Shown: positions 5,582 through 29,947 of the stretch, one piece after another | Layout of the letters: every line of letters starts with the position of its first letter | Numbering within the stretch: the first letter of the stretch is position 1 | Source of the DNA: Limisphaerales bacterium | GTDB taxonomy: Bacteria; Verrucomicrobiota; Verrucomicrobiia; Limisphaerales; BOG-1460 | Assembly (NCBI GenBank): GCA_003159675.1 | Contig: PLQC01000075.1 | Location: 1-32,309 of the forward strand | Length of the DNA stretch: 32,309 nt | Direction of reading: 5' to 3' | Translations under genes and position numbers: made by a program | Notes under the pieces: generated by a model | What the model was told of the DNA's origin: nothing | Databases searched by the model: none | What the model saw: the letters and a program-made list of their open reading frames with translations, nothing else

Positions 5582-6775
5582 CTACGAGCGTTTGTTTCCG
5601 CCTGACAATCGCAGGTTTTTTTCGATCAGCCGGCAGCGTTGGTCCACGCAGAGGGAGGAGCGCATGCCGTCTTCCGGCGTGTTCAGCACGTAATCGAGCA
5701 ATCCGTCCACCGTGCTGGTCGCGACGTGGGTGCGGGTGTCGGAGGAGCCGTAGTAAATGAAAACGTCGCCGTTCTTGCGGGCGACCCAGCCATTGGCAAA
5801 GACCACATTCGAGACATCGCCCACCCGCTCCTCGCCTTCCGGGGCGAGGAAATAACCGCCGGGAGACTTGATGAGTTTGGCGGGGTCGTTCAGGTCGCAC
5901 AGGAAAAGATAGAGGACGTAACGCATGCCGGCGGCGGTGTTCCGCACGCCGTGCGCCAGGTGCAGCCAGCCCTTGCTCGTCCGTATGGGGGCCGGGCCCA
6001 GGCCGTTCTTGCCTTCCTTGAGCGTGTGGTAAAAGCGCGGGTCGATTATCTGTTCCCGTCCGATGACCGCGTTCTCGATGTCATCGCACAAACCCCAGCC
6101 GATGCCGTCGCCGGTGCCGGTGGCCGCAAAGTCGGTCATGGGGCGGGTATAGAGCGCGTATTTCCCTTTGACGAATTCCGGATGGAGGACGCAGTTGCGC
6201 TGGTGCTGGGAGTTGGTCTTGAGATCGGGCAACCGTTCCCATTTCACGAGGTCCTTGGTGCGTGCGATGCCGCAACGGGCGATGGCGGCGGACAGATCAC
6301 CCGGTTTGGAGTCATCGTGACGCTCGGCGCAGAACAGGCCGTACACCCAGCCGTCCTCGTGGCGGACGAGGCGCATGTCGTACAGGTTTGTTTCCTGCGG
6401 TTCGTAGTCAGGCATCCGGACCGGGTAATCCCAAAACCGGAAGCCGTCCACGCCGTTTTTGCTTTCGGCGATGGCGAAGAACGACTTGCGATCCCAGCCC
6501 TCGACGCGGCCCATGAGGACGATATTGCCGTTCCACTCCATGGCGCCGACATTGAACACGGCGTTGATGCCCATCCGCGTCATGAGGCGCGGGTTTGTGG
6601 CGGGGTTGAAATCGTATCGCCAGGAAAGCGGTGTGTGGTCGGCTGTGAGAACGGGCCGTTCGTAGCGGTCGAAGATGCCATTGCCGTTCTGTTGCGGGCG
6701 ATTGCGCCGCCGGATGAGTTGCGCGTGCCGCTGGCGGAGCCGCTTCAGTTTTTGGTTGAAGGATTTTGTGGTCAT
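5582..6775 (-). CDS. GH130 4-O-beta-D-mannosyl-D-glucose phosphorylase
   Basis: This is a cytoplasmic inverting phosphorylase that splits beta-1,4-mannosyl-glucose with phosphate into mannose-1-phosphate and glucose. All 397 residues align by memory with the characterised mannosylglucose phosphorylases of about 390 residues. Matching segments are GNGIFDRYERPVLTADHTP, RVEGWDRKSFFAIAES, the catalytic aspartate in LYDMRL (Asp133), FCAERHDD, HPEFVKGKYALYTRP, GWLHLAHGVRN and YYGSSDTR. There is no signal peptide. Together with the 2-epimerase at 9869-11080 it completes the bacterial mannobiose pathway. It is transcribed divergently from the Tat-exported mannanase-like gene at 6991. Function is well supported; mannosyl-oligosaccharide phosphorylase is the main alternative within GH130. 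Confidence 0.93.
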   Translation of the reverse strand: MTTKSFNQKLKRLRQRHAQLIRRRNRPQQNGNGIFDRYERPVLTADHTPLSWRYDFNPATNPRLMTRMGINAVFNVGAMEWNGNIVLMGRVEGWDRKSFFAIAESKNGVDGFRFWDYPVRMPDYEPQETNLYDMRLVRHEDGWVYGLFCAERHDDSKPGDLSAAIARCGIARTKDLVKWERLPDLKTNSQHQRNCVLHPEFVKGKYALYTRPMTDFAATGTGDGIGWGLCDDIENAVIGREQIIDPRFYHTLKEGKNGLGPAPIRTSKGWLHLAHGVRNTAAGMRYVLYLFLCDLNDPAKLIKSPGGYFLAPEGEERVGDVSNVVFANGWVARKNGDVFIYYGSSDTRTHVATSTVDGLLDYVLNTPEDGMRSSLCVDQRCRLIEKNLRLSGGNKRS

Positions 6776-6990: not shown

Positions 6991-8364
6991 ATGATCCACA
7001 AGCATACTTCGCGAAGAACGTTCCTCAAGACCACCGCCCTGGCGCTGCCGCTGGTCGCAGCCGGATACGCCAGCGCCCAGACGAACTCCGCGCGCCCGCG
7101 AAGAAGCGCCGGCGATTTCGTCGGCGTTCGCAACGGCAGGTTCGAATGGCGGGACCGGCCCTACTTCTATGTCGGGACCAACCTGTGGTATGGCTGCTAT
7201 CTCGGCGACCCGGCGCTGGCGGGCGGGCGGCAGCGGCTCGTGCGTGAACTCGACCGCCTGCAACGGATCGGCGTGACGAACATCCGTCTGCTGGCAGGCT
7301 CGGAAACTTCGCCCCTGGCAGGCTCGATCCCGCGCGGCACCAAACGCGGCGCGCGTGATTGGGACGAGGACCTGCTTCGCGGACTGGATTTTTGCCTGGC
7401 CGAAATGGCGAAGCGCAAAATGCGGGGGATTCTGTTTGTGTCCAACTATTGGCAGTGGTCCGGCGGCTTCGCACAGTACGTCCGCTGGGTGACGGGAGAG
7501 ACCATCCCCGACCCGGACCGGCCGGTGATGGCCCGTGGCGACTGGCACGCCTTCATGCAATTCTCCGCCCGGTTTTATACCCTGCCGGCTGCGAGCGAGC
7601 TGTATCGCGCCTACGTTTCGCAATTGATACAGCGCCGCAACACCGTCAACGGGCAGATCTACCGCCATGACCCGGCCATTATGACCTGGGAGCTGGCCAA
7701 CGAGCCGCGTCCCGGCACCGACGACGCCAAAACGGTCGATGATGTCCCCATTTTCGCCAAATGGGTGGACCAGACGGCCAGGTTCATTCACGACCAGGAT
7801 CCGAACCATCTGGTCTGCACCGGCTCGGAAGGCATTTGGGGCTCCCTGAAGAAGCCGGAGGTTTTTGTCGAGGTGCACAAGACCCCGGCGATCGATTACG
7901 TCACAGTACACATGTGGCTGAAGAACTGGGGCTGGCTCAAGGACCCCCAGCTTTCGCCGGAATACGAAAGCGCCGCGGCGAGGGCGAAGGACCACGTGGA
8001 ACAGCACACCGTGCTGGCGACAGACACGCTGCACAAGCCGCTGGTTTTAGAGGAATTCGGGTTGCCGCGCGATCATGAGAAATATGAACCAGAGACGCCC
8101 ACGGCGGCGCGCGACGATTATTATGGCCGGATGTTCCAGCAGGTGGCGGATTCCTGCAAGGCGGGCCGGGCGTTACAGGGCGCCAACTTCTGGACCTGGG
8201 GCGGTGAAGGCCGGCCGGGTGTCGGCAAACCGGATTCAGCCACGGGGCTGACAGGCGATCCGCCCTGCGAACCGCAGGGGCTCAACTCGGTGTTCGATAC
8301 GGACAAAAGCACCCTGGCGATGATCTCTCAAGCCAATGCCAAATTGGGCGCGCTGGCGGGATGA
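6991..8364 (+). CDS. GH5 endo-beta-mannanase-like protein, Tat-type leader
   Basis: This is a secreted or periplasmic beta-mannan-cleaving enzyme of 457 residues. Residues 1-30 are a Tat-like leader (SRRTFLKTTALALPLVAAG) cut near ASA-QT. The catalytic domain starts near residue 42 with FVGVRNGRFEWRDRPYFYVG, the usual opening of GH5 mannanases. The acid/base glutamate is Glu238 in TWELANEPR and the nucleophile is Glu355 in LVLEEFG. GH5 subfamily 7 (beta-mannanase) is the best reading, supported by the adjacent phosphorylase and epimerase. ATG 6991 has a GGAG at suitable distance. It converges with the GH28-like gene, with an 8-nt gap. A different mannosidase specificity within the GH5 mannanase group is possible. 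Confidence 0.88.
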   Translation: MIHKHTSRRTFLKTTALALPLVAAGYASAQTNSARPRRSAGDFVGVRNGRFEWRDRPYFYVGTNLWYGCYLGDPALAGGRQRLVRELDRLQRIGVTNIRLLAGSETSPLAGSIPRGTKRGARDWDEDLLRGLDFCLAEMAKRKMRGILFVSNYWQWSGGFAQYVRWVTGETIPDPDRPVMARGDWHAFMQFSARFYTLPAASELYRAYVSQLIQRRNTVNGQIYRHDPAIMTWELANEPRPGTDDAKTVDDVPIFAKWVDQTARFIHDQDPNHLVCTGSEGIWGSLKKPEVFVEVHKTPAIDYVTVHMWLKNWGWLKDPQLSPEYESAAARAKDHVEQHTVLATDTLHKPLVLEEFGLPRDHEKYEPETPTAARDDYYGRMFQQVADSCKAGRALQGANFWTWGGEGRPGVGKPDSATGLTGDPPCEPQGLNSVFDTDKSTLAMISQANAKLGALAG

Positions 8365-8372
8365 TGGAACGC

Positions 8373-9872
8373 TCAAGGCTGTTGGGCCCGGGCCGTTTTG
8401 GGCAGCGCCCCCAGCGTGACGTCATCCAGTTTCAGGTCCTCGACGTCGGCCTTGTCGAACGCTTCACCGTAAACCCGATCCGAAGGTTCCCCCCACCCCA
8501 CCTCGGTGTCGCGTAGTGAGAGTCCCTTGACATGGCGCGCATAAATCCCCGCCAGCTTGCTTTCAAAAACGCCCTTGAACACTCCCGCGGGACGCAGATC
8601 GTAAAAGCCCCCCGGCACATCGCTGGTCTTCGCCAGCTCGAGGCGGACGTTGTCGAACACAATGTTTTCCAGGGGACGATTCGTCCAGCCCTGGAGGAAA
8701 ATTCCGTTTTCGCTGTGGCAAAGAATGTTGCTGAACCGGATGTTGCGGACGTGGCCCAGCTTCGTTTGTGGCGTCCTTGGGAACAGGCTGATATGAACGG
8801 GCTCGGCGGCGCCCCACCATTTGTGAGGCGAGAAGCGTGTTTCGACGGTGATATTGGCGAAGAGGACGTTTTCGATGTCGCCTTCGTCCCGGCTTTGGAT
8901 GCACAACCCTCGATTGCTGTGGGACACGACGCAATCGGCGAACACGATGTCGCGGGCGCCGGGTTGGGTGTAAATCTCGTCCACCTTCAGGGCGCAGCTT
9001 CGCGACGCGACGATGCAACCCGTGACGGTGATGCGGGCCGACCCGCCATAGGAGGCGAAGTTCGGGGTGTTCTTGATTACAATGCCGTCGTCGGCGGCTT
9101 CGATGGAGCAATTGGCGACGCGAACGTCGCGGCAATGGTCGATGTCGATGCCGTCGTTGTTCGCCACGTCCCACGCGTTGCGGATGCTGATGGAGTCGAT
9201 CGAGACCTCCTCGCAGCCGACCAGATGGACCGTCCAGCTTGGGGCGTTCCGCAAGGTGACATCGCGCAGGCGAACCCGCTCGCAGCCGATGAAAATCACC
9301 ATCATCGGTCGTCCGCCGTGCGTTTGCGGCTGGGTCGGTAGTTTATCAAATGGCCACCAATTGCCGGTGAAAGACTCGGGCCACCACCCGTCCTTGTTGA
9401 CGTTGCCGCCGGCCTCTTCATCGGCCAATTCCTGCCACACGGCGCGGTCGTTGCCGTCCAACACGCCGGTGCCGGAGACCGTGAGGCCCCGGGCATCCTT
9501 CGCGAACAGCAATGCGCCCGGTTTGCCGTAGGCGCGCCAGTCCGGGCTGCCTTTAAGAACGGCGGTGCCGGCAAGGTGGAAATCGATTCCGCTGCGCAGG
9601 GTGATCGCGCCCGATAGAAAGAGCTTGCCCGACGGCAGGAGCACCTGTCCCCCGCCCTGTTCGCCGCAGGCATCCACGGCCTTCTGGATAGGCACGGTAT
9701 CGTCGTTCGTGCCGTCTCCCCTGGCGCCGTAATCGAGCACGTTGAAGATGCCGACGCTGCTCTCGGCGGAGGTGTTGACGGCGATGAGCATCGCCGCAGC
9801 CAGGATTGCAGCGAACACGGGAAGCAGTGGGTGCGGCGGACACGACGGCTTTCCGTGGTTTCGGCTTGTCAT
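8373..9872 (-). CDS. GH28 (polygalacturonase)-like exported protein, divergent
   Basis: This is a predicted right-handed beta-helix protein of 499 residues. A hydrophobic signal segment (about residues 16-36) precedes FNVLDYGARGDGTNDD, the standard opening of GH28 and related pectate-fold enzymes. It keeps NNDGIDID and ADDGIVIKN, corresponding to the NTD and DD motifs with catalytic aspartates. The GHG motif is replaced by a segment reading ASRSCALKVDE, and the RIK motif appears as CIQ. A changed substrate or weakened catalysis is therefore likely. The ATG at 9872 overlaps the TGA of the epimerase by 4 nt (ATGA), which fixes the start and shows translational coupling. Its role beside mannan enzymes is unknown; removal of side groups or a pectin-type substrate in the same plant material is a guess. 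Confidence 0.82.
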   Translation of the reverse strand: MTSRNHGKPSCPPHPLLPVFAAILAAAMLIAVNTSAESSVGIFNVLDYGARGDGTNDDTVPIQKAVDACGEQGGGQVLLPSGKLFLSGAITLRSGIDFHLAGTAVLKGSPDWRAYGKPGALLFAKDARGLTVSGTGVLDGNDRAVWQELADEEAGGNVNKDGWWPESFTGNWWPFDKLPTQPQTHGGRPMMVIFIGCERVRLRDVTLRNAPSWTVHLVGCEEVSIDSISIRNAWDVANNDGIDIDHCRDVRVANCSIEAADDGIVIKNTPNFASYGGSARITVTGCIVASRSCALKVDEIYTQPGARDIVFADCVVSHSNRGLCIQSRDEGDIENVLFANITVETRFSPHKWWGAAEPVHISLFPRTPQTKLGHVRNIRFSNILCHSENGIFLQGWTNRPLENIVFDNVRLELAKTSDVPGGFYDLRPAGVFKGVFESKLAGIYARHVKGLSLRDTEVGWGEPSDRVYGEAFDKADVEDLKLDDVTLGALPKTARAQQP

Positions 9873-11080
9873 GACTGCATTGTGTGCAACCGGTGCAGTG
9901 TTTCCAAGCACATCCGCGAGCCGTGATACGGGCCCTTCCATTCGCTGACCTTGGGGAGTTTCGGGTCGGGGCGACCGTCCTCGTTGATGCGCCAGAACCA
10001 TTCACCGTGAACACGGTCCACGAGACGGTTTTCGATAAAATCGTAAGCGCGGATCGAGGCATCGAGGTACTTCGACTCCCTGGAAAGCTGGAACGCGTTA
10101 AGGAACCCGATCACGGCCTCAGCCTGCGGCCAGCATTCCTTGCCTGGATCGATGATTTTTCCGCCCTTCCCTTCGTAACAGAGCGCGCCGTCGGGGGCGA
10201 CGCCCTCCCGGAGCGCCGTCTGGGCCATCGGCAGCGCCACGGTCCGCACGTGATCGAGCAGCGCGGGATCTCCCAGCACTTCGGCCGCTTCGCAGAGCAG
10301 CCAGGTCCCTTCGATGTCATGGCCGAAGGTGTAGGTGTCCGACCGCACGCGCCATTGTTCGTCGAAGAAGTGGTTGAAGTGATGCGTGCGCGGGTCGAGG
10401 ATGCGCTTCTCGAAGAGCCCGATCAATTCGCGCAACCGCTGTTCGAGCCTTGGATCCTTCCAGACCCGGTACAAATTGGTGTATGCCTCCAGAACGTGAA
10501 GGTGATTGTTCATCGATTTCTTCTCGTTCATGTCCTTGTCGCTGAGCCGCGCGTCCGCGGCGGCCTCCGACCAATCGCGCCGGCGCACCTCGAGGTAGCC
10601 GCCGAATTGGGGATCGTGCGCATGCCGTTCGATCGACTCGAACAGTTCGGTGGCGCGCGCCAGGGCCGGCGGCGCATTGAAGGCCTGGTGATATTCCGCG
10701 AGCGCGTAGATGTAAAACGCCTGGCCGTAGATTTTTTTGGAATCGTCGGTGACCCGTCCGGCGTCGTCCAACCGCCAGAAGGCCCCGCCGAACTGCGCGT
10801 CCCAGAACCGGTTCATCACGAAGTCGAAGGCGCGATCGGCCATGTGTTTGAAGAGCAGGTCGGGGCGTTTCCGGTGGACGGCCGAGAAAGCCCACAGGAT
10901 GCGGCTGTTCACGATAAGCCCCTTGGGCTGGGTGCGGTCGGGTTTGAGATCGTTGGAAAGGCAGGCCATCCAGCCGCCCTGTTCGCGGTCCACCGCGGGC
11001 CCGCACCAGAATGGCATGAGGTGGCCGAACAGTTGATCGCTGACACGCTGGGAAAAGGCTTTCAACTCCTGTGAATTCAT
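9869..11080 (-). CDS. AGE-family cellobiose/mannobiose 2-epimerase
   Basis: This is a cytoplasmic 2-epimerase of 403 residues, of the cellobiose 2-epimerase group (EC 5.1.3.11). In mannan pathways the group converts beta-1,4-mannobiose to mannosyl-glucose. It has no signal peptide. Visible family motifs of the alpha6/alpha6 barrel are LIVNSRILWAFS (54-65), KIYGQAFYIYALAEY, EKKSMNNHLHVLEAYTNLYR (187-205), the catalytic-histidine segment FGHDIEGTW (His254), WPQAEAVIGFLNA and WKGPYHGSRMCLE with the second histidine. These distinguish it from N-acylglucosamine epimerases. It is followed directly by the GH28-like gene (4-nt overlap) and preceded by a hairpin-rich spacer after the second GH5 gene. 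With the GH130 phosphorylase it gives the complete mannobiose route. Confidence 0.93.
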   Translation of the reverse strand: MNSQELKAFSQRVSDQLFGHLMPFWCGPAVDREQGGWMACLSNDLKPDRTQPKGLIVNSRILWAFSAVHRKRPDLLFKHMADRAFDFVMNRFWDAQFGGAFWRLDDAGRVTDDSKKIYGQAFYIYALAEYHQAFNAPPALARATELFESIERHAHDPQFGGYLEVRRRDWSEAAADARLSDKDMNEKKSMNNHLHVLEAYTNLYRVWKDPRLEQRLRELIGLFEKRILDPRTHHFNHFFDEQWRVRSDTYTFGHDIEGTWLLCEAAEVLGDPALLDHVRTVALPMAQTALREGVAPDGALCYEGKGGKIIDPGKECWPQAEAVIGFLNAFQLSRESKYLDASIRAYDFIENRLVDRVHGEWFWRINEDGRPDPKLPKVSEWKGPYHGSRMCLETLHRLHTMQS

Positions 11081-11176: not shown

Positions 11177-13018
11177 CTAATTTTTCTCCGGCGCATACGT
11201 GATTTCCACCCGGCCGATTTGCGTTTCACCGGTCAGCTCGATTTTCAGGAACTTGAAGTCCGGACCCACATTCCCGGCCTGGTAAAGGACCGGCTTCCAA
11301 TATTTGTAATCCCCGGGCCCCTGGAAATGGAGACCCTCGGCGGCGCTGATGTCATGATAAACCTTGCCGTCGGCGGACCCGGCGAATTTCAGGTCCGCGA
11401 CGTCGTGCGGAAAGAAGGCGAACACGCGAAACCCCTGGACCGAGGTAGGAACCTGATACACGAGGGCGTCGCCGGCGTTGCCGGCGGCGCGATAGGCGTC
11501 TTCCTTTGCCTGGCGGCTGTTGCGCGTTTGAATCGCCAGGCCGCCCTCGATGGCGTGGACTTTTGAAAAATCAGCCAGTTCATCGACCAGGGTGCCATGG
11601 GTGACCGGGACCGGACCGAACAAGTTCGAAGGTTCCGAGACGCCGGTGGTGTTGGCGGCGCGGACGCGATAATACCACTGGCTAGAAGACACGGCCTGAT
11701 CCGCAAACAGGGGGCGATATTGCGCCAAGCTCTCATCAATGCCATCCCCGGCCACGAACCAGGGTCCACTGGACTTCGGCGCTCTCTCGACCGTGTAGCT
11801 TGAGGCGCCGACGGAACCCTGCCAGGAGATGGCCGCGACGTCGGTGATCGGGAGCAATGTCGGCGGCGCGGGAACCGGCACGGGCGGCTCGGCAATTTCG
11901 CGGATCTCGAACGCGTAATGGCGGACCATGGCGAGGAGATTGATCTCGTCATACAGGGCGCCGATCGGTGAACCGGGCCAATGGAAGGCTTTATACTGGT
12001 TGCCTCCGGACGGTTCGCTGTGCCAGTAGAAACCGCCGTCGCGATCGTGGAAGCGGAGGCTCCAGAGCAGCCCGCCCGAGGTGTGGGTTTCGACGATCGC
12101 CTTGATCGCCTCCTCCATTTGTGACGTGCTGACGAATCCGAATTCGCCGATGACGTATGGCTTCCGTCCCTTGGCCTTCGCCGCGTTCTCGCGAATCAAC
12201 TGGGCGAAGGACTTCTTCGTCTTCGAGCCCGGGTAATGGTGTGTGGTGACGATGTCCACTTCCGGCATGGCGAGGGACTCGGGGCGCAGCTCGTTGGCAT
12301 TGAAGCCGTCCATCACCAGGTGGTTGGTATCGAGGCTCTTGATGTACGCGGCGATTTGCCGCGTCCAGGGAGCCGGGGACTGGAGTTCATTTCCGGTTTC
12401 CCAGCATAGAATGGCCGGATCATCGGAGTAAACGATGCCGGTCAGCGTGTTGGTTCGCAGGAGCACGAACCGGATGGTTTCCTTGAAATCGGCGATGATT
12501 TGTGGATCCGTCCAGAAATCATCCTTCAGCTTACCCCGAAAACCGGCGTATTCGGCCCGGCCACCCTGCCAGATCCAATTATCCACCAGGGGGATGATGA
12601 GGCGGATTCCGTGTTCGTTGGCCGCCTGAATGACCTGGTCCAGTGTGCGGAACGCCTCTTCGTTGAAACGGCCCGGACCGAGCACATGGCGCGGCACGCC
12701 CGGCGCATCGTTGGTGCGGTGCACGGAGATGACGTAAGTGCGCACCACGGTGCCGCCCATCTGGCGAACCGTCGCCAGCGCATCGTTGATCTCGAAACGG
12801 TCCGGCAGACGCCACGGATTGAGTTCCGCGAACGGCAGGTCGTCCTCGATGAGTTGCAGATTCGGGATGTCCCAGGAGATGAAACGGAATGGCTTGTCGC
12901 CTTCAAACAACCGGTCGCCGCGCGCGGTGATGAAATCGCGGGAGACGGGCTCGGCGCGGACGATGGCCGAGGCGAAAAGGAGAAGGCATCCAACGGAGAA
13001 CAGGTTCAGGTTTTTCAT
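11177..13018 (-). CDS. GH5 mannanase-like enzyme with C-terminal accessory domains
   Basis: This is an exported glycosidase of 613 residues. A Sec signal peptide (residues 1-22, SVGCLLLFASAIVRA) is followed by a GH5 TIM barrel to about residue 365. The acid/base is Glu211 in CWETGNEL and the nucleophile is Glu292 in YVIGEFGF. The opening ITARGDRLFEGDKPFRFISWD fits the mannan endo-1,4-beta-mannosidase branch. Residues about 377-462 look like a fibronectin type III-like module (SWQGSVGASSYTVERAP). The last 140 residues resemble a beta-sandwich carbohydrate-binding or discoidin-like domain. The ATG at 13018 is preferred over a TTG 21 nt earlier because it starts the signal peptide. It follows the response regulator gene in the same direction, leaving 117 nt for a promoter. 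It probably acts outside the cell to release mannobiose. Confidence 0.85.
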   Translation of the reverse strand: MKNLNLFSVGCLLLFASAIVRAEPVSRDFITARGDRLFEGDKPFRFISWDIPNLQLIEDDLPFAELNPWRLPDRFEINDALATVRQMGGTVVRTYVISVHRTNDAPGVPRHVLGPGRFNEEAFRTLDQVIQAANEHGIRLIIPLVDNWIWQGGRAEYAGFRGKLKDDFWTDPQIIADFKETIRFVLLRTNTLTGIVYSDDPAILCWETGNELQSPAPWTRQIAAYIKSLDTNHLVMDGFNANELRPESLAMPEVDIVTTHHYPGSKTKKSFAQLIRENAAKAKGRKPYVIGEFGFVSTSQMEEAIKAIVETHTSGGLLWSLRFHDRDGGFYWHSEPSGGNQYKAFHWPGSPIGALYDEINLLAMVRHYAFEIREIAEPPVPVPAPPTLLPITDVAAISWQGSVGASSYTVERAPKSSGPWFVAGDGIDESLAQYRPLFADQAVSSSQWYYRVRAANTTGVSEPSNLFGPVPVTHGTLVDELADFSKVHAIEGGLAIQTRNSRQAKEDAYRAAGNAGDALVYQVPTSVQGFRVFAFFPHDVADLKFAGSADGKVYHDISAAEGLHFQGPGDYKYWKPVLYQAGNVGPDFKFLKIELTGETQIGRVEITYAPEKN

Positions 13019-13135
13019 GAAATACTTCCGCACTGGCAAACGCCCGGCGCCTTCGCCGGCGCTGGCGCAGCCTCGATGTGACTTGTAACGGGCATTAGGG
13101 CGATGAACTCGAGAAAACCACCCTCGACCCGGCGC

Positions 13136-13857: not shown

Positions 13858-16800
13858 TCATGTCGAAAGGACGGCGACCGCCACCACAAACTTTACTTCG
13901 GTTCCCCGCCCGGGGGCGCTCTGGATTTCGCAGTGTCCGCCGACTTTTTCCAGGCGGAGTCGCATATTGGCCAAGCCGTGGCCATGCACGATGCGGCTCG
14001 GCGCGCTGGCCCCGTGCTGTGCGGGCGCTTCCGGACAGAACCCGACGCCGTTATCACGAATCACGAGGGTGAACGCGTCCGGGTCGGTTTTGAGCGAGAC
14101 ACAGAGCTCGGAGGCTGCGGCGTGTTTCAGCACGTTGTTCAAGGCTTCTTTGAAGGCGAGGAACAGGTTGTGCCGCACTTCGGCGGTGACGGGCCACGCC
14201 GGCAGTTGCTCGGGCACATCGAGCCGGCAGCGGATGTGCAGCGGGCCCAGGAAATCCTGGGCGAATTTGCCCACGTAACTCACCAGGCTGTCCAGCGTGT
14301 CGTGCTGGGGATTGACCGCCCAGACGATCTCGTCCATGGCGCGGGTCAGCTCGCGAGTCGTGCTGTAGATTCGTTCCAACTGGATTGCGGCGTGCTGGGG
14401 ATTGTCCAATTCCCCGAACACGGACTGGCTGAGAAGCGAGATGCGCGTCAGGCTCGCGCCCAGGTTGTCGTGGATGTCCTGGGCGATGCGGGAGCGCTCG
14501 CGTTCGATGGCGCGCTGGCGTTCCACGCGTTCGAGCTTGCGGTGCATCCGCCGGCGTGTGACGAACAACACGCTTCCCGCAAGGAGCGCCGCCGCGGCCA
14601 GCGCGGTCGGCACGCGAAACCACCACGTCTGCCAGAAATACGGCTGCACCGTGAACTCCAGTGCGGCGCCGACCAGGTTCCAGACACCGTCGCTGTTGCA
14701 CGCGACGACGCGGAAGGTGTAATGGCCCGGTGGAATATAGCCGTAGTTCACGGCCCGCTTTGACCCGCCGTCCATCCACTCGGTCTCCAACCCTTCGAGA
14801 TGGTATTGAAAGCGGACTTTCTCCGGAGCGACAAACGTCAGCGCGGTGTAGCGGAATTCAAACCGCTGAGGGCCGGGCGGAATCCGCAAGGGAGCGCTGT
14901 CGTCCGGCGCTTTCGCCACCGCGCGGCCGTCCACGAGCATCTTTTCGATGACAACCGGCGGAGGCAATGGGTTGGCCTTGGCGCCGTTCGGGTCCACCAC
15001 CGCCAGGCCCTTGCTGGTCGGGAACCAGAGGCGGCCGTCCTTCGTCTTGCAGCCCGCCGGCTGCAGTCCGCCCGAACATTCCAGCGTCGGCATCCCGTCG
15101 CCCTTGCCGTAACTCAGACACCGCACGGATTTGGTCTGGCCGTCCAGGCAACGATTCAACTCTCCCTTTTGGATTCGAAAAATGCCTCCGTGCGAGCTGA
15201 GCCAGAAATTGCCGCTGTCATCCTGCTCGATGTCGCAAATGAAATTGTTGGGCAGCCCCTGGCTCGTGTTGATGGAGGAAAACTGCCCATGCTTGAACCG
15301 GTTCAATCCGCCGCCATAAGTTCCGATCCACATCGCGCCGTCTGAATCCAGATGCAGACACTGGACATAGTCGCTCGATAGGCCGTCGCGCTTTCGGAAT
15401 TGTCGGACCTCGTTCCCGTGCAGCCGGCCCAGGCCGCCGGCCAGCATGCCGAACCACAAGTCTCCCGAGCCGTCTTCCACCACCGCCCGGACGTCCGGCA
15501 GGTTCAATCCCTTCTGCCTCCCGAACCATGAGATCCCATTGGTCGCGTAGCGCAGGATGCCCTCACCGGTGCCCACCCATGTCACCCCGTCCTTTGCGTG
15601 CAACAGGGCCGTCGTGGGCACGGTGAGATTCTCCAGTCCCGCCGGAGGCGCGAAATGATCGCCCTGCTGGAGGAACAGGCCGCCGCCCCAGGTTCCCGCC
15701 CAGATGCGACCCTGCAAATCCTCGGAAACCGACCAAACAAACTGGTTGGAGAGCCCGTTGTTTTCCCCGAAATGAGACCATTCGCCCTCGAACAGGCGAT
15801 ACAAACCCGCGCCTTCGGTGCCAATCCACAGCGCTCCGTCGTGCGCCGCCGAAACGGACAGCACCACCCTGCCCTGCCATTGATCCGGCGCATTCACTGT
15901 CGCAATGTTTCCCGCGCGCAGAGCCACCAGCCCGCCGCTGCCCGTGCCAGCCCACAGCGTGCCTTCGCGGTCCTCCGACAGCGAACGCACCCAATCGTGC
16001 GGGAATCCGTTCTTACGATCGAAATGAATGACGCCGCGATGCGGAAAAATCAGATAGAGCCCCCGGTCCAGGGTTCCGACCGCCAGGCATCCCGACCGGG
16101 TCTCAATGGCCGTGGTGATCGAACCTTGATTCCATGGGCTTGCTCCCAGGTCGTCCGTCAATTCATGCCCGTCCCACTTCCGCACCCGCCCGTCGCTCAC
16201 AATCCACAGTCCGCCATCATCACTCGCGCAAATCCCGGAGACATACCCTCCCACCGACTCGCCGTCAGGTGCGATCGGAACCAATTGATTCTTTTCGAGC
16301 TTGAACACCTCCCCGCCATTCAATATCCACAACTGTCCGCGATGGTTCCGTACCAAGGCGGTCACACTGGCCGGAGTCCCCGCGTTGGGAGCGGAAATCA
16401 CTTCGCCGTCGAGCCCGACCAGTCTGCCATCGTCCTTGAACATCCAGATTCTGCCCGACTCGTCGGCGCTGATCCCCAGGATCTTCCTGTTTTCGTTGTC
16501 CCCTTTGGAAGACACCGCCTGAAAATGGCCGGCCCGGTAATACGTGACCTCCCCCGTTTCATGCCCGATCCACAGGATGCCGTTGTCATCCTCAAATAGG
16601 CTCACCACGCGGCTGCTACCCATTTCCGGGGTGTTCTTCTGGTCGCTTTCGAACACCGTGAAGCTGGCGCCGTCAAATCGCGCCAGACCGTCGTACGTGC
16701 CCAGCCACAGGTAACCCTCCTGCGTCTGCACCACCGCCGTCACCGCGTTCTGCGGCAGGCCGTCCTCCGTCTGCCAGACGCGTATGAAATAGTTCGGCAG

Positions 16801-17016
16801 CGGCGGAGTCGCGCCGAACAGGCGCAGGCTCACACAGCCGAGAACCGCCGCGTAGCCGCCCACCCGCGCGACCCGGCGAGCTCGACTCTGCACCCGCCCG
16901 GGTCGGAAGCAGAATGCCTTGATCCCGCGGCGGAAAGCCGGCAGCGGCTGGACCGGCTCGAGCGGTCTGCGGAGGATCGCCCACACGCGCTCCAGAAGTG
17001 GCAGAGGCGCAAACAC
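13858..17016 (-). CDS. two-component propeller sensor histidine kinase (Reg_prop, Y_Y_Y, HisKA_3)
   Basis: This is a 1052-residue membrane sensor kinase built like the periplasmic sensing half of the hybrid systems that control polysaccharide loci in Bacteroidota, but without fused receiver or AraC domains. After a hydrophobic N-terminus (near residues 45-65) come many propeller repeats, each with an LWIGT-like strand (YLWLGTYDGLARF, LWIGHETG, LWAGTGSGGL, MWIGTYGGGLNRF). A Y_Y_Y domain (FQYHLEGLETEW) follows, then a transmembrane segment (FRVPTALAAAALLAGSVLFV). The cytoplasmic HisKA_3 box has His849 in IAQDIHDNLGASL. The ATPase domain has the N box ALNNVLKHA, and DNGVGF and GHGLANMRLRL. The start is GTG 17016. 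Adjacent response regulator and glycosidases suggest it senses a mannan-derived oligosaccharide; this is inference. Confidence 0.92.
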   Translation of the reverse strand: MFAPLPLLERVWAILRRPLEPVQPLPAFRRGIKAFCFRPGRVQSRARRVARVGGYAAVLGCVSLRLFGATPPLPNYFIRVWQTEDGLPQNAVTAVVQTQEGYLWLGTYDGLARFDGASFTVFESDQKNTPEMGSSRVVSLFEDDNGILWIGHETGEVTYYRAGHFQAVSSKGDNENRKILGISADESGRIWMFKDDGRLVGLDGEVISAPNAGTPASVTALVRNHRGQLWILNGGEVFKLEKNQLVPIAPDGESVGGYVSGICASDDGGLWIVSDGRVRKWDGHELTDDLGASPWNQGSITTAIETRSGCLAVGTLDRGLYLIFPHRGVIHFDRKNGFPHDWVRSLSEDREGTLWAGTGSGGLVALRAGNIATVNAPDQWQGRVVLSVSAAHDGALWIGTEGAGLYRLFEGEWSHFGENNGLSNQFVWSVSEDLQGRIWAGTWGGGLFLQQGDHFAPPAGLENLTVPTTALLHAKDGVTWVGTGEGILRYATNGISWFGRQKGLNLPDVRAVVEDGSGDLWFGMLAGGLGRLHGNEVRQFRKRDGLSSDYVQCLHLDSDGAMWIGTYGGGLNRFKHGQFSSINTSQGLPNNFICDIEQDDSGNFWLSSHGGIFRIQKGELNRCLDGQTKSVRCLSYGKGDGMPTLECSGGLQPAGCKTKDGRLWFPTSKGLAVVDPNGAKANPLPPPVVIEKMLVDGRAVAKAPDDSAPLRIPPGPQRFEFRYTALTFVAPEKVRFQYHLEGLETEWMDGGSKRAVNYGYIPPGHYTFRVVACNSDGVWNLVGAALEFTVQPYFWQTWWFRVPTALAAAALLAGSVLFVTRRRMHRKLERVERQRAIERERSRIAQDIHDNLGASLTRISLLSQSVFGELDNPQHAAIQLERIYSTTRELTRAMDEIVWAVNPQHDTLDSLVSYVGKFAQDFLGPLHIRCRLDVPEQLPAWPVTAEVRHNLFLAFKEALNNVLKHAAASELCVSLKTDPDAFTLVIRDNGVGFCPEAPAQHGASAPSRIVHGHGLANMRLRLEKVGGHCEIQSAPGRGTEVKFVVAVAVLST

Positions 17017-27505: not shown

Positions 27506-29947
27506 ATGAAACATCCCAAAGGGCCGGGCAGCCATGGCATGAACCCGCCCGAAAACCCGATGGCATTCGGTGCGCCCGGCATCGAACCCTGCTGGACTTC
27601 CAGCGCGAAGGAAGGCTTGGGCACCGCTTATCATACAAGCTGCCGGCTCTGGTTCACGCTCAGCCATGGCATCGTCAACGAGATTTACTACCCCTCGGTT
27701 GACACACCGAACACGCGCGATTTTCAGTTCCTGATCACCGACGGGGAAACGTTTTGCCATGAGGAAAAGCGCGACCTGAGCCACCGGATCGAATACCCGG
27801 AACGCGATTGTGTTTTCTACCGCCTCACCAACTCGGAGCCCAACGGGCGTTACCGGCTGATCAAGCACGTCCTTGCAGATCCACACCGGTCGGTGCTGCT
27901 CGTGCATACCCGGCTCGAAGTCATGGATCCATCCCTGCGCGGCAGGTTGCACCTCTACGCACTGCTGGCGCCGCATATCGCGCGTCATGGGGCCGGCAAC
28001 TCCGGCTGGTGTTCCGAAATCAACGGCAACCAACTGCTCCATGCGGAACGCAAGGACATCCATCTTGTCATGGGTTGCAGCGCAGGTTTTTCGCGGCGGT
28101 CGGTCGGGTATGTCGGTGCCAGCGATGGTTGGCAGGATTTGACGAATCATTTCAAAATGGACTGGGAATTTAGCGGGGCGGAAGACGGCAACATCGCGCT
28201 GACGGGCGAAGTCGATCTTCGCGCGGGTGGCGAATTTACGATCGCCATTGCTCTCGGAGGGAGCTGCCAGAGCACGATGGCGAAGATGCTGCAATCACTG
28301 GCGGAGCCCTTCGAAGTTCATCGCGAGGCCTATGTCCGCCAGTGGCAGCGCACGGTCGTCAATCCGAAGTATGATTTCAGCCGGCACACCTCGGACAGCG
28401 GTCATCTGTACCGGCTCAGCCGCTGCATCCTGCTCGCCCACGAAGACAAATTGTTTCAAGGCGCACTGGTGGCGTCGATGAGCATCCCCTGGGGCGAAAC
28501 GAAGTGCGACAACGATCTGGGCGGTTATCATCTGGTCTGGACGCGCGACCTGGTGCAGAGCGCGACGGCATTGCTGGCGACGGGCCAAACCGGGACTCCG
28601 CTGCGCGCCTTGATCTGGCTCGCAGCCGTCCAGCGGCCGGACGGCAGTTTCCCGCAAAACAGTTGGATCAATGGGAACGCGTACTGGTCCGGTGTGCAAC
28701 TGGATGAAATTGCCGCCCCGATCCTGCTGGCGTGGCGGTTGCGCAACAACGACACCTCGCTGGGGCGGTTCGATCCTCGCGTCATGATTTTTGGTGCCGC
28801 AGCCTATCTCATGCGGCAGGGCCCGGTCACCGCGCAGGAACGCTGGGAGGAAAACGCCGGCTATTCACCCTCGACGCTCGCCACGGTGATTGCCGGCTTG
28901 GTGTGCGCCGCGGAGTTCGCCAAGTGTGCCGATGAAATGCGCACGGCCGGGTTCATTCTGGACTATGCCGACTGGCTGGCCGCGCACATCGAGGAATGGA
29001 CCGTGACCACGTGCGGCGAGCTGGTCGGGGGTTTTCCGCGCCACTACATGCGGATCAATCCCACGGATCCTCTGGCGCCCGATCCGCACGCCGATCCCAA
29101 CACAACGATGCTCGAAGTCGGCAACGCCGGCGGCCTTCATCCGGCAAGAAACATCGTGGGCGGCGATTTTCTTCACCTGGTGCGTCTGGGCATTCGTGCG
29201 GCGGATGACCCCGTCGTGCGCGATTCGATCGAAGTGATCGATCGCGTGCTCAAACGCGATCTGCCGCAAGGCCCCTGCTGGCGCCGCTACAACCACGACG
29301 GCTATGGGCAGAAGGAGGACGGCAGCGCCTTCGATGGCACGGGCGTCGGCCGGTCCTGGCCGATATTGACCGGCGAACGCGGTCATTACGAACTCGCCGC
29401 CGGGCGCGATCCGCTGCCCTTCATTTCGGCGATGGAAAAATTCGCCAACGAAGGGGCGATGATCAGCGAGCAGTTGTGGGACGCCGACGACCTGCCGGAG
29501 AGAGGGATGAGGCGCGGCCAGCCGACGGGTGCGGCCATGCCGTTGTGCTGGTCGCATGCCGAATACGTGTCGCTCGTGCGCAGTGCTCACGACGGCATCT
29601 GCTTCGATCGCGTCGAACCGGCATTCCAGCGCTATGTTGTCAACCCGGTGCGAAGCCTGCATGAAATCTGGAACTTGCGCCATCCGGTTCGGCGGATGTC
29701 CCCTGGAAAAATATTGCGCGTCATCGTCACCGCGGAGGCCACGGTCGTGTGGTCGGAGGATCGCTGGGCGAACACCAGGACCTCGGACGCCACCCTGGTG
29801 GGCCCGCTCAATCTGTGGTTTGTGGATTTTCCGACGAAGAATCTGCCGGTCGGTTCGGTGATCGAGTTCACCTTTTTCTGGAAGGACACCCAGCGCTGGG
29901 AAGACAGGAATTACTCCGTCAGCGTCGGCGTCACAAGCTTTGGGTAG
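27506..29947 (+). CDS. GH15 glucoamylase-like glycosidase
   Basis: This is a protein of 813 residues without a signal peptide, so probably cytoplasmic and acting on alpha-glucans such as glycogen or maltodextrin. The N-terminal beta-sandwich (about 25-300) opens with GAPGIEPCWTSSAKEGLGTAY and LSHGIVNEIYYPSVDTPNTRD. The alpha6/alpha6 barrel follows with GGYHLVWTRDLVQSATALLA, the general acid in RWEENAGYSPSTLATVIAG, and the general base in ISEQLWDADDLPERGM. A C-terminal beta-domain ends the protein. Length and order fit bacterial glucoamylase / glucodextranase-like GH15 proteins. ATG 27506 is the first in frame; ATG 27539 is an alternative. No link to the mannan locus is evident. Trehalase or dextran specificities within GH15 cannot be excluded. 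Confidence 0.9.
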   Translation: MKHPKGPGSHGMNPPENPMAFGAPGIEPCWTSSAKEGLGTAYHTSCRLWFTLSHGIVNEIYYPSVDTPNTRDFQFLITDGETFCHEEKRDLSHRIEYPERDCVFYRLTNSEPNGRYRLIKHVLADPHRSVLLVHTRLEVMDPSLRGRLHLYALLAPHIARHGAGNSGWCSEINGNQLLHAERKDIHLVMGCSAGFSRRSVGYVGASDGWQDLTNHFKMDWEFSGAEDGNIALTGEVDLRAGGEFTIAIALGGSCQSTMAKMLQSLAEPFEVHREAYVRQWQRTVVNPKYDFSRHTSDSGHLYRLSRCILLAHEDKLFQGALVASMSIPWGETKCDNDLGGYHLVWTRDLVQSATALLATGQTGTPLRALIWLAAVQRPDGSFPQNSWINGNAYWSGVQLDEIAAPILLAWRLRNNDTSLGRFDPRVMIFGAAAYLMRQGPVTAQERWEENAGYSPSTLATVIAGLVCAAEFAKCADEMRTAGFILDYADWLAAHIEEWTVTTCGELVGGFPRHYMRINPTDPLAPDPHADPNTTMLEVGNAGGLHPARNIVGGDFLHLVRLGIRAADDPVVRDSIEVIDRVLKRDLPQGPCWRRYNHDGYGQKEDGSAFDGTGVGRSWPILTGERGHYELAAGRDPLPFISAMEKFANEGAMISEQLWDADDLPERGMRRGQPTGAAMPLCWSHAEYVSLVRSAHDGICFDRVEPAFQRYVVNPVRSLHEIWNLRHPVRRMSPGKILRVIVTAEATVVWSEDRWANTRTSDATLVGPLNLWFVDFPTKNLPVGSVIEFTFFWKDTQRWEDRNYSVSVGVTSFG

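Follow-up and report, generated by a model that had tools for sequence, protein, structure and literature searches.

GH28 catalysis relies on three aspartate residues and is inverting, and to our knowledge all the activities described for this family are directed at pectic polymers. We know of no GH28 component in the pathway that combines a mannobiose epimerase with a mannosyl-glucose phosphorylase, and no report of a GH28 protein within a mannan cluster was found among the titles and abstract openings listed for the literature on GH28 with mannan. This bacterial pathway for beta-1,4-mannan was reportedly described by Senoura et al. in 2011. The named GH28 groups nearest to the protein considered here, P0001, are PglB of Agrobacterium (NCBIfam NF051861; Atu4560) and the rhamnogalacturonidase BT4146 (NCBIfam NF049898). 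Its best sequence matches are the Thermotoga maritima exo-polygalacturonase 3jur and the galacturonidase 5olp, which have the same catalytic Asp columns. PglB is involved in polygalacturonic acid degradation according to the excerpted text of PMC6683767, which cites Mathews et al. 2019, and the excerpt of PMC8952511 supports, in part, an inverting GH28 chemistry carried out by catalytic Asp residues. In the fungal survey contained in that excerpt (PMC8952511), polygalacturonases and xylogalacturonases strictly conserve His223, which rhamnogalacturonases lack, and subsites -1 and +1 of the fungal enzymes include Ser229, Arg256 and Lys258.

The window, that is the whole stretch of 32,309 nucleotides that was analysed (contig PLQC01000075.1 of assembly GCA_003159675.1, from a Limisphaerales bacterium), contains an epimerase, a GH130 phosphorylase, a mannanase and an exo-mannosidase, which are all the enzymes of the pathway mentioned above (Table 1). 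Judged by their closest solved relatives, the neighbours of P0001 form a bacterial beta-1,4-mannan pathway, and the set of epimerase, mannosyl-glucose phosphorylase and mannanase by which we recognised a mannan cluster is present. The regulator-propeller histidine kinase may be the mannan sensor or regulator of the cluster; of the loci holding its relatives, G210 has a GH28 gene and G233 has none. The window contig is not obviously foreign, since its housekeeping gene GCV_T has up to 79% identity to genomes of the same order. Two further features of the window lie apart from this subject. A RACo-type reductive activator appears to be split over two overlapping minus-strand frames (886-1707 and 1529-2599), one with the Fer2 domain and middle region and one with the C-terminal ASKHA domain, as a frameshift or an assembly error would produce, and a plus-strand GH15 gene with a glucodextranase N domain (27506-29947) is not obviously in the mannan cluster.

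Table 1. Coordinates of the mannan cluster genes and of the features of P0001 in the window
Feature	Position	Strand	Basis
GH130 4-O-beta-D-mannosyl-D-glucose phosphorylase	5582..6775	minus	closest solved relative 3was, 2e-173
GH5 exo-beta-mannosidase, Man5A type	6991..8364	plus	closest solved relative 1uuq, 2e-109
GH28-fold protein P0001, 499 aa	8373..9872	minus	Pfam, AlphaFold2 model, Foldseek and VIA-align fold match
Cellobiose/mannobiose 2-epimerase	9869..11080	minus	closest solved relatives cellobiose 2-epimerase 9l8i and 3wkf, E about 1e-104
GH5 endo-beta-1,4-mannanase with C-terminal extension	11177..13039	minus	best match endo-beta-mannanase 1rh9, 4e-26
Two-component regulator-propeller sensor histidine kinase	13858..17016	minus	profile match; strong relatives in phosphorylase loci G210 and G233
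P0001, likely Sec signal peptide, residues 1-38	9759..9872	minus	judged by eye; ortholog N-termini hydrophobic by eye
P0001, NTD-type motif N238-N239-D240, catalytic Asp column	9153..9161	minus	alignment
P0001, DD motif D261-D262, catalytic Asp columns	9087..9092	minus	alignment
P0001, SCALKVDEIY, residues 292-301	8970..8999	minus	Ser292 at the His column; D298-E299 at G-S of IGS; Tyr301 inserted
P0001, CIQ at the RIK position, residues 324-326	8895..8903	minus	alignment
P0001, WWGAAE, residues 352-357	8802..8819	minus	[WF]WG..E common to the scan relatives

The plus-strand frame over the region of P0001 is interrupted by stops; shorter plus-strand frames are also listed within it, and an alternative, longer start of P0001 is possible at 10001. 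Its match to the Pfam profile PF00295 (67.4 bits for a cut-off of 22.9, E 1.5e-18) places the protein in GH28. The AlphaFold2 model, computed from 51 sequences taken from the window and from a genome scan with the WWG..E pattern, is of high quality (pLDDT 90.8, pTM 0.91), and this structure prediction, proposed as a check by an earlier reading of the sequence alone, returned a GH28-like fold. Indeed, the best Foldseek match is 3jur (7e-19), with 5olp also among the best, and VIA-align aligned 342 residues of the model with the plant polygalacturonase 7b8b (Z 40.3, rmsd 2.1) and gave Z 37.0 for 3jur and Z 36.1 for 5olp. The top five VIA-align rows are all GH28 proteins, and the right-handed beta-helix of P0001 is closest to solved enzymes of this family. 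Alginate C-5 epimerases come just behind (Z 36.9); because they match the model as well as some GH28 proteins do, the fold alone leaves the activity unfixed and the assignment to GH28 rests on sequence and fold jointly. P0001 is a variant of GH28, and the fold itself is not new.

The residues of P0001 were mapped by sequence alignment, taking as reference sequences of the same order that keep the motifs, e.g. L016 and L004 (GHG[LM]SIGSE ... GIRIK). The sequence-only reading had reported that the NTD- and DD-type motifs survive, that GHG is replaced and that RIK reads CIQ, and the alignment bears out all three observations. The His column is occupied by Ser292 and the RIK position exactly by C324-I325-Q326, so that P0001 has neither the His of GHG nor the Arg and Lys of RIK that would be looked for in a polygalacturonase, whereas 3jur has the His and a basic RIK column (it reads RLK). 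The Ser of IGS in L004 and L016 aligns with Glu299 and the preceding Gly with Asp298. As for the fungal subsite residues, Ser229, Arg256 and Lys258 align with E299, C324 and Q326, respectively, and Ser229 is presumably the Ser of IGS in the numbering of the Aspergillus motif GHGLSIGS. Ser292 and Gln326 are kept in all 11 members of the clade to which P0001 belongs (described below), and position 324 varies between Cys, Ser and Ala. Two basic residues stand near the lost columns, namely K296 (11/11 in the clade and 67/70 in the other scan loci) and R321 (present in all of them), and they could do part of the work of the missing residues.

The columns of D240, D261 and D262 are invariant in the clade (11/11) and in the other scan loci (70/70), and the dN/dS values of 0.05-0.16 obtained for the gene (six pairs compared) indicate purifying selection. 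The loss of several substrate-binding columns would fit a non-catalytic beta-helix that merely binds carbohydrate, but three intact catalytic Asp columns under strong purifying selection make this reading barely credible.

Relatives were collected with one pattern around WWG..E run over genome contigs, which returned 211 stretches, 151 of which encode a relative, and the best 80 of these 151 were kept; the invariance of WWG..E among them is by construction, and relatives devoid of it would escape the scan. In the best 80 of the 151 relatives, all of which were used for the counts of the His, RIK and D-E columns, we found no His at aligned residues 290-295, no Arg at column 324 and no Lys at column 326. 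A His or Lys that was shifted but present, the outcome that would have spoken against the earlier reading, was thus not seen at these positions, Lys296 and Arg321 standing nearby. The loss is also far from exceptional. Two Agrobacterium sequences that exceed the NCBIfam PglB cut-off of 600 (L098, 696.7; L114, 608.2) are among the relatives without GHG and RIK, and L002, a gene of the same genome as P0001 that scores 585.9 for a cut-off of 500 with the rhamnogalacturonidase BT4146 model, lacks both at these columns. We therefore rejected a unique motif loss in P0001, as it is common to the best 80 of 151 relatives and to at least one other GH28 branch. The suggestion that the loss of GHG and RIK points by itself to a new specificity has to be abandoned for the same reason, PglB members and the BT4146-type L002 being without both motifs and fungal rhamnogalacturonases being without the His in the excerpted survey (PMC8952511). 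A changed substrate is plausible for the clade of P0001 on other grounds, namely its own specific changes together with its context. A GH28 of another subgroup on the Bacteroides finegoldii plasmid L043 (7890-9350) is also without GHG and RIK; it sits among GH76, GH97, GH2 and GH38 genes and is a second case of GH28 beside mannan-type enzymes.

The clade contains P0001 and ten scan loci (L044-L053) with 59-77% identity and a support of 100/100; we know of no activity reported for any of its members. In the tree, which kept 68 rows, it stands apart from the PglB clade, from a haloarchaeal clade and from a broad clade of 27 rows. It was also recovered in an earlier tree, for which 24 loci had been dropped as near-duplicate or redundant, together with L005, L027 and the weakest hits; in both trees some branches are long, among the outgroups and for L092. 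The phylogenetic check asked for by the sequence-only reading thus sets it outside the group formed by PglB, a named pectinase. In a sample of 387 genomes of the phylum (E up to 1e-100), one further relative was found in G477, with 46% identity; it keeps G-T-E, and no mannan genes were seen near it. This gene is directly adjoined by a NotI-type restriction enzyme and a D12-class DNA methyltransferase (L167, 10364-12259). No relatives were found in viral contigs.

A distinctive feature of the clade is a segment in which D298, E299 and the inserted Tyr301 are present in 11/11 members, whereas none of the 70 other scan loci has D-E at 298-299 or any residue at 301. In these, position 298 is Gly in 67/70 and Glu in the remaining three (L089, L091 and L100), and position 299 is Thr or Ser in 70/70. 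Seven aromatic residues (F123, W146, W164, W173, F175, W234 and F272) are likewise conserved in 11/11 members and lacking in the other loci, in a list that the close kinship of the members (9/11 from one genus) inflates; W112 is not specific, a Tyr occupying its position in PglB-like rows. In group comparisons that omitted L089, L091, L096, L097, L100 and near-identical Haloferax rows, the clade has Met at position 190 and Ala at position 355 (11/11 each), and at each of these positions Lys or Arg is found in two of the three groups that were compared. A neutral substrate might have been deduced from fewer basic residues, but the count did not bear this out, with 23 conserved basic columns in the clade versus 15-19 in the other groups (L104 being counted twice in the pgl group); the substrate can therefore not be told from charge alone.

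These columns bear on the possibility that P0001 hydrolyses mannans bearing uronic acids, or a pectin-mannan cross-link, with a retained carboxylate pocket for which K296, R321 or R328 would supply the basic residues. The near-universal K296 and R321 are compatible with it, as are R291 and K351, conserved basic residues gained by the clade. R328 is replaced by Leu in L044-L046, Met190 and Ala355 are present throughout the clade, D298 and E299 add negative charge, and no alpha-glucuronidase or uronate-pathway family was found among the cluster proteins scanned, all of which lead us to consider such a substrate improbable.

A more serious contender is a genuine pectinase, similar to PglB or to rhamnogalacturonidases and acting in exo mode on galacturonan or rhamnogalacturonan oligosaccharides, that would be housed in a mannan operon because pectin and mannan co-occur in plant walls. 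PglB, the top NCBIfam match of P0001 (251.6 bits), resembles it in the subgroup pattern, in the Asp columns and in the loss of GHG and RIK, also seen in the Agrobacterium sequences above its cut-off, and has the reported role in polygalacturonic acid degradation given above (excerpt of PMC6683767); K296, R321 and, in most sequences, R328 could bind a carboxylate. Some neighbours of the wider subgroup agree with this reading: among six annotated plasmid examples, the Rhizobium locus L042 adjoins GH88 and the haloarchaeal loci L038 and L040 adjoin oligogalacturonate lyase, while L039 and L041 adjoin transport and oxidation genes, so that pectin is the likely setting for part of the subgroup. Yet the score of P0001 lies far under the PglB cut-off of 600, and that with BT4146, the next match, is 129.9 bits for a cut-off of 500. 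PglB keeps G-T-E without the inserted Tyr and no mannan-cluster genes were found alongside its members, the PglB and mannan clades are separate and each fully supported, and the signature found only in the latter falls in the very segment of the canonical His. The BT4146 type, judged from L002, shares the absence of GHG and RIK with P0001 but is devoid of the WWG..E stretch and belongs to another branch. Moreover, the source genome has other GH28 genes with His and R.K elsewhere. Taking these points together, we regard a pectinase as possible but rather unlikely. Three of the other GH28 genes (L003, L004 and L008) lie within about 25 kb on contig C119 and keep the His and the R.K motif (RIK, RFK, RMK), and the source genome seems to keep there a separate pectin locus.

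The tie to mannan use that had been read from the overlap with the epimerase proved to be conserved. A census of the clade GH28 and of the phosphorylase (each at E up to 1e-90) covered 320 genomes of the order and found the former in 10, the latter in 25 and both in 9 (Fisher p 2e-10), which means that the phosphorylase accompanies 9/10 genomes with the clade GH28 versus 16/310 without, counts that are non-independent and confounded by descent, as 9 of the 10 holders are from one genus. Within this genus (49 genomes), the phosphorylase is still found in 8/9 genomes with the GH28 gene versus 8/40 without (p 2e-4), and the epimerase in 7/9 versus 10/40 (p 5e-3). Of the 9 genomes with both genes, 8 have GH28 and phosphorylase on the same contig, no more than about 7 kb apart; the exception is G221, where they lie on separate contigs. 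At the level of proteins, 8 of the 11 clade members are encoded at most about 7 kb away from a mannosyl-glucose phosphorylase gene, with genes for mannanase, mannosidase and epimerase around them (scan loci L044-L050, L052 and L053 and the loci from genomes of the order being one data set, not two).

The genes are variously arranged. The epimerase precedes GH28 in G210, G211, G218 and the window, the phosphorylase precedes it in G202, G204 and G207, and in G229 a GH26 gene separates phosphorylase from GH28; some of the clade loci further contain GH26 mannanases, GH27 alpha-galactosidases or a GDSL esterase. The earlier reading described the GH28 gene as coupled to the epimerase. Stop and start overlap by four bases in the window (ATGA, 9869-9872), and in L044-L046, which have the same gene order, a plausible GH28 start comes about 170-240 nt after the epimerase stop, so that the adjacency is conserved and the overlap is not.

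If the GH28 gene merely travelled with the cluster within one genus, such linkage would be uninformative on the substrate. This bystander reading draws on the 9/10 holders that belong to that genus and on 18 of 26 phosphorylase places where no GH28 was present in the stretch seen (some stretches end at contig ends), which make the GH28 gene optional, as well as on clade members in other settings. Indeed, L051 is beside an arabinofuranosidase gene, and in G215 and G221 the GH28 gene is flanked by two GH2 genes in place of mannan genes; the best solved relatives of these GH2 enzymes mostly carry the name beta-galactosidase. Against it, co-occurrence persists within the genus, linkage is kept despite different gene orders and the source genome comes from another family of the order than the genus that holds the other nine, and we consider a mere bystander very improbable. 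The block of G215 (L148, 4066-13640) and G221 (L146) reads GH2, GH28, a 588-aa protein (in G215), a 347-aa protein and GH2; no Pfam match was found for the 588-aa and 347-aa proteins of G215, the former having a very weak GH36-like match (E 0.03), and the block possibly includes an undescribed glycosidase.

Beyond the clade, no epimerase, GH130, GH5, GH26 or GH27 gene was found near the 70 wider relatives L054-L123 (phmmer with reference proteins, E 1e-12), in a search where many stretches end at contig ends and distant family members may escape. One of these relatives, L079, belongs to Natronoglomus mannanivorans, a haloarchaeon named for mannan use, and its stretch likewise gave no match to these five families.

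The recruitment of a divergent GH28 clade to a mannan locus is thus confirmed, and the oddity seen in the window is conserved. We would put at about an even chance the reading in which P0001 is an exported, catalytically competent GH28-fold accessory glycosidase that acts on a side chain or cross-link during beta-1,4-mannan use. From the established chemistry of the family and the intact D240, D261 and D262 columns, we infer that P0001 would cleave an alpha-linked branch by hydrolysis with inversion, outside the cytoplasm in view of the signal peptide judged by eye. Removal of the branch would clear the backbone for the GH5 and GH26 mannanases and for the exo-mannosidase; the resulting mannobiose or mannosyl-glucose would be imported and epimerised by the enzyme of the overlapping gene, and the GH130 phosphorylase would split the epimerised product into mannose 1-phosphate and glucose. 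An exo-action is suggested by a long insert (residues about 143 to 187) similar to that of the exo-enzyme 3jur, inserted loops underlying the exo mode according to the excerpt of PMC8952511.

As to the branch itself, our tentative guess, which is more likely wrong than right, is a neutral alpha-galactosyl branch, e.g. alpha-1,6-Gal, or Gal-beta-1,2-Gal-alpha of beta-galactoglucomannan. That the clade has left pectin altogether to remove such neutral branches from beta-mannan, possibly the disaccharide branch of beta-galactoglucomannan, is similarly doubtful. A non-pectic switch of this kind would have been made through Ser, Glu, Cys and Gln at the His, Ser, Arg and Lys positions of the uronate site, together with an aromatic-rich exo-loop. 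Beta-galactoglucomannan has Gal-beta-1,2-Gal-alpha-1,6 branches on a backbone of Glc and Man, as stated in the excerpts of PMC11662442 and PMC10735049, and could hypothetically suit both a pathway that ends with mannosyl-glucose phosphorolysis and the GH2 neighbours in G215 and G221. An alpha-galactosidase role proposed because no other such enzyme was present is weakened, since GH27 matches, two of them strong and full-length and one weaker, lie on other contigs of the source genome and a GH27 alpha-galactosidase is found in 4 of the 8 loci with GH28 and phosphorylase, so that this job is already covered.

Our results suggest a shift from pectin to decorated mannan in part of the GH28 family. 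With the clade GH28 as a conserved partner of the mannan pathway, automatic "polygalacturonase" labels would be wrong for at least this clade, and a larger share of the subgroup without GHG and RIK may be mislabelled as well. The clade of P0001 also offers a testable case of substrate change in an inverting beta-helix enzyme, and P0001 may be a debranching enzyme so far missing from the breakdown of plant mannans by environmental Verrucomicrobia.
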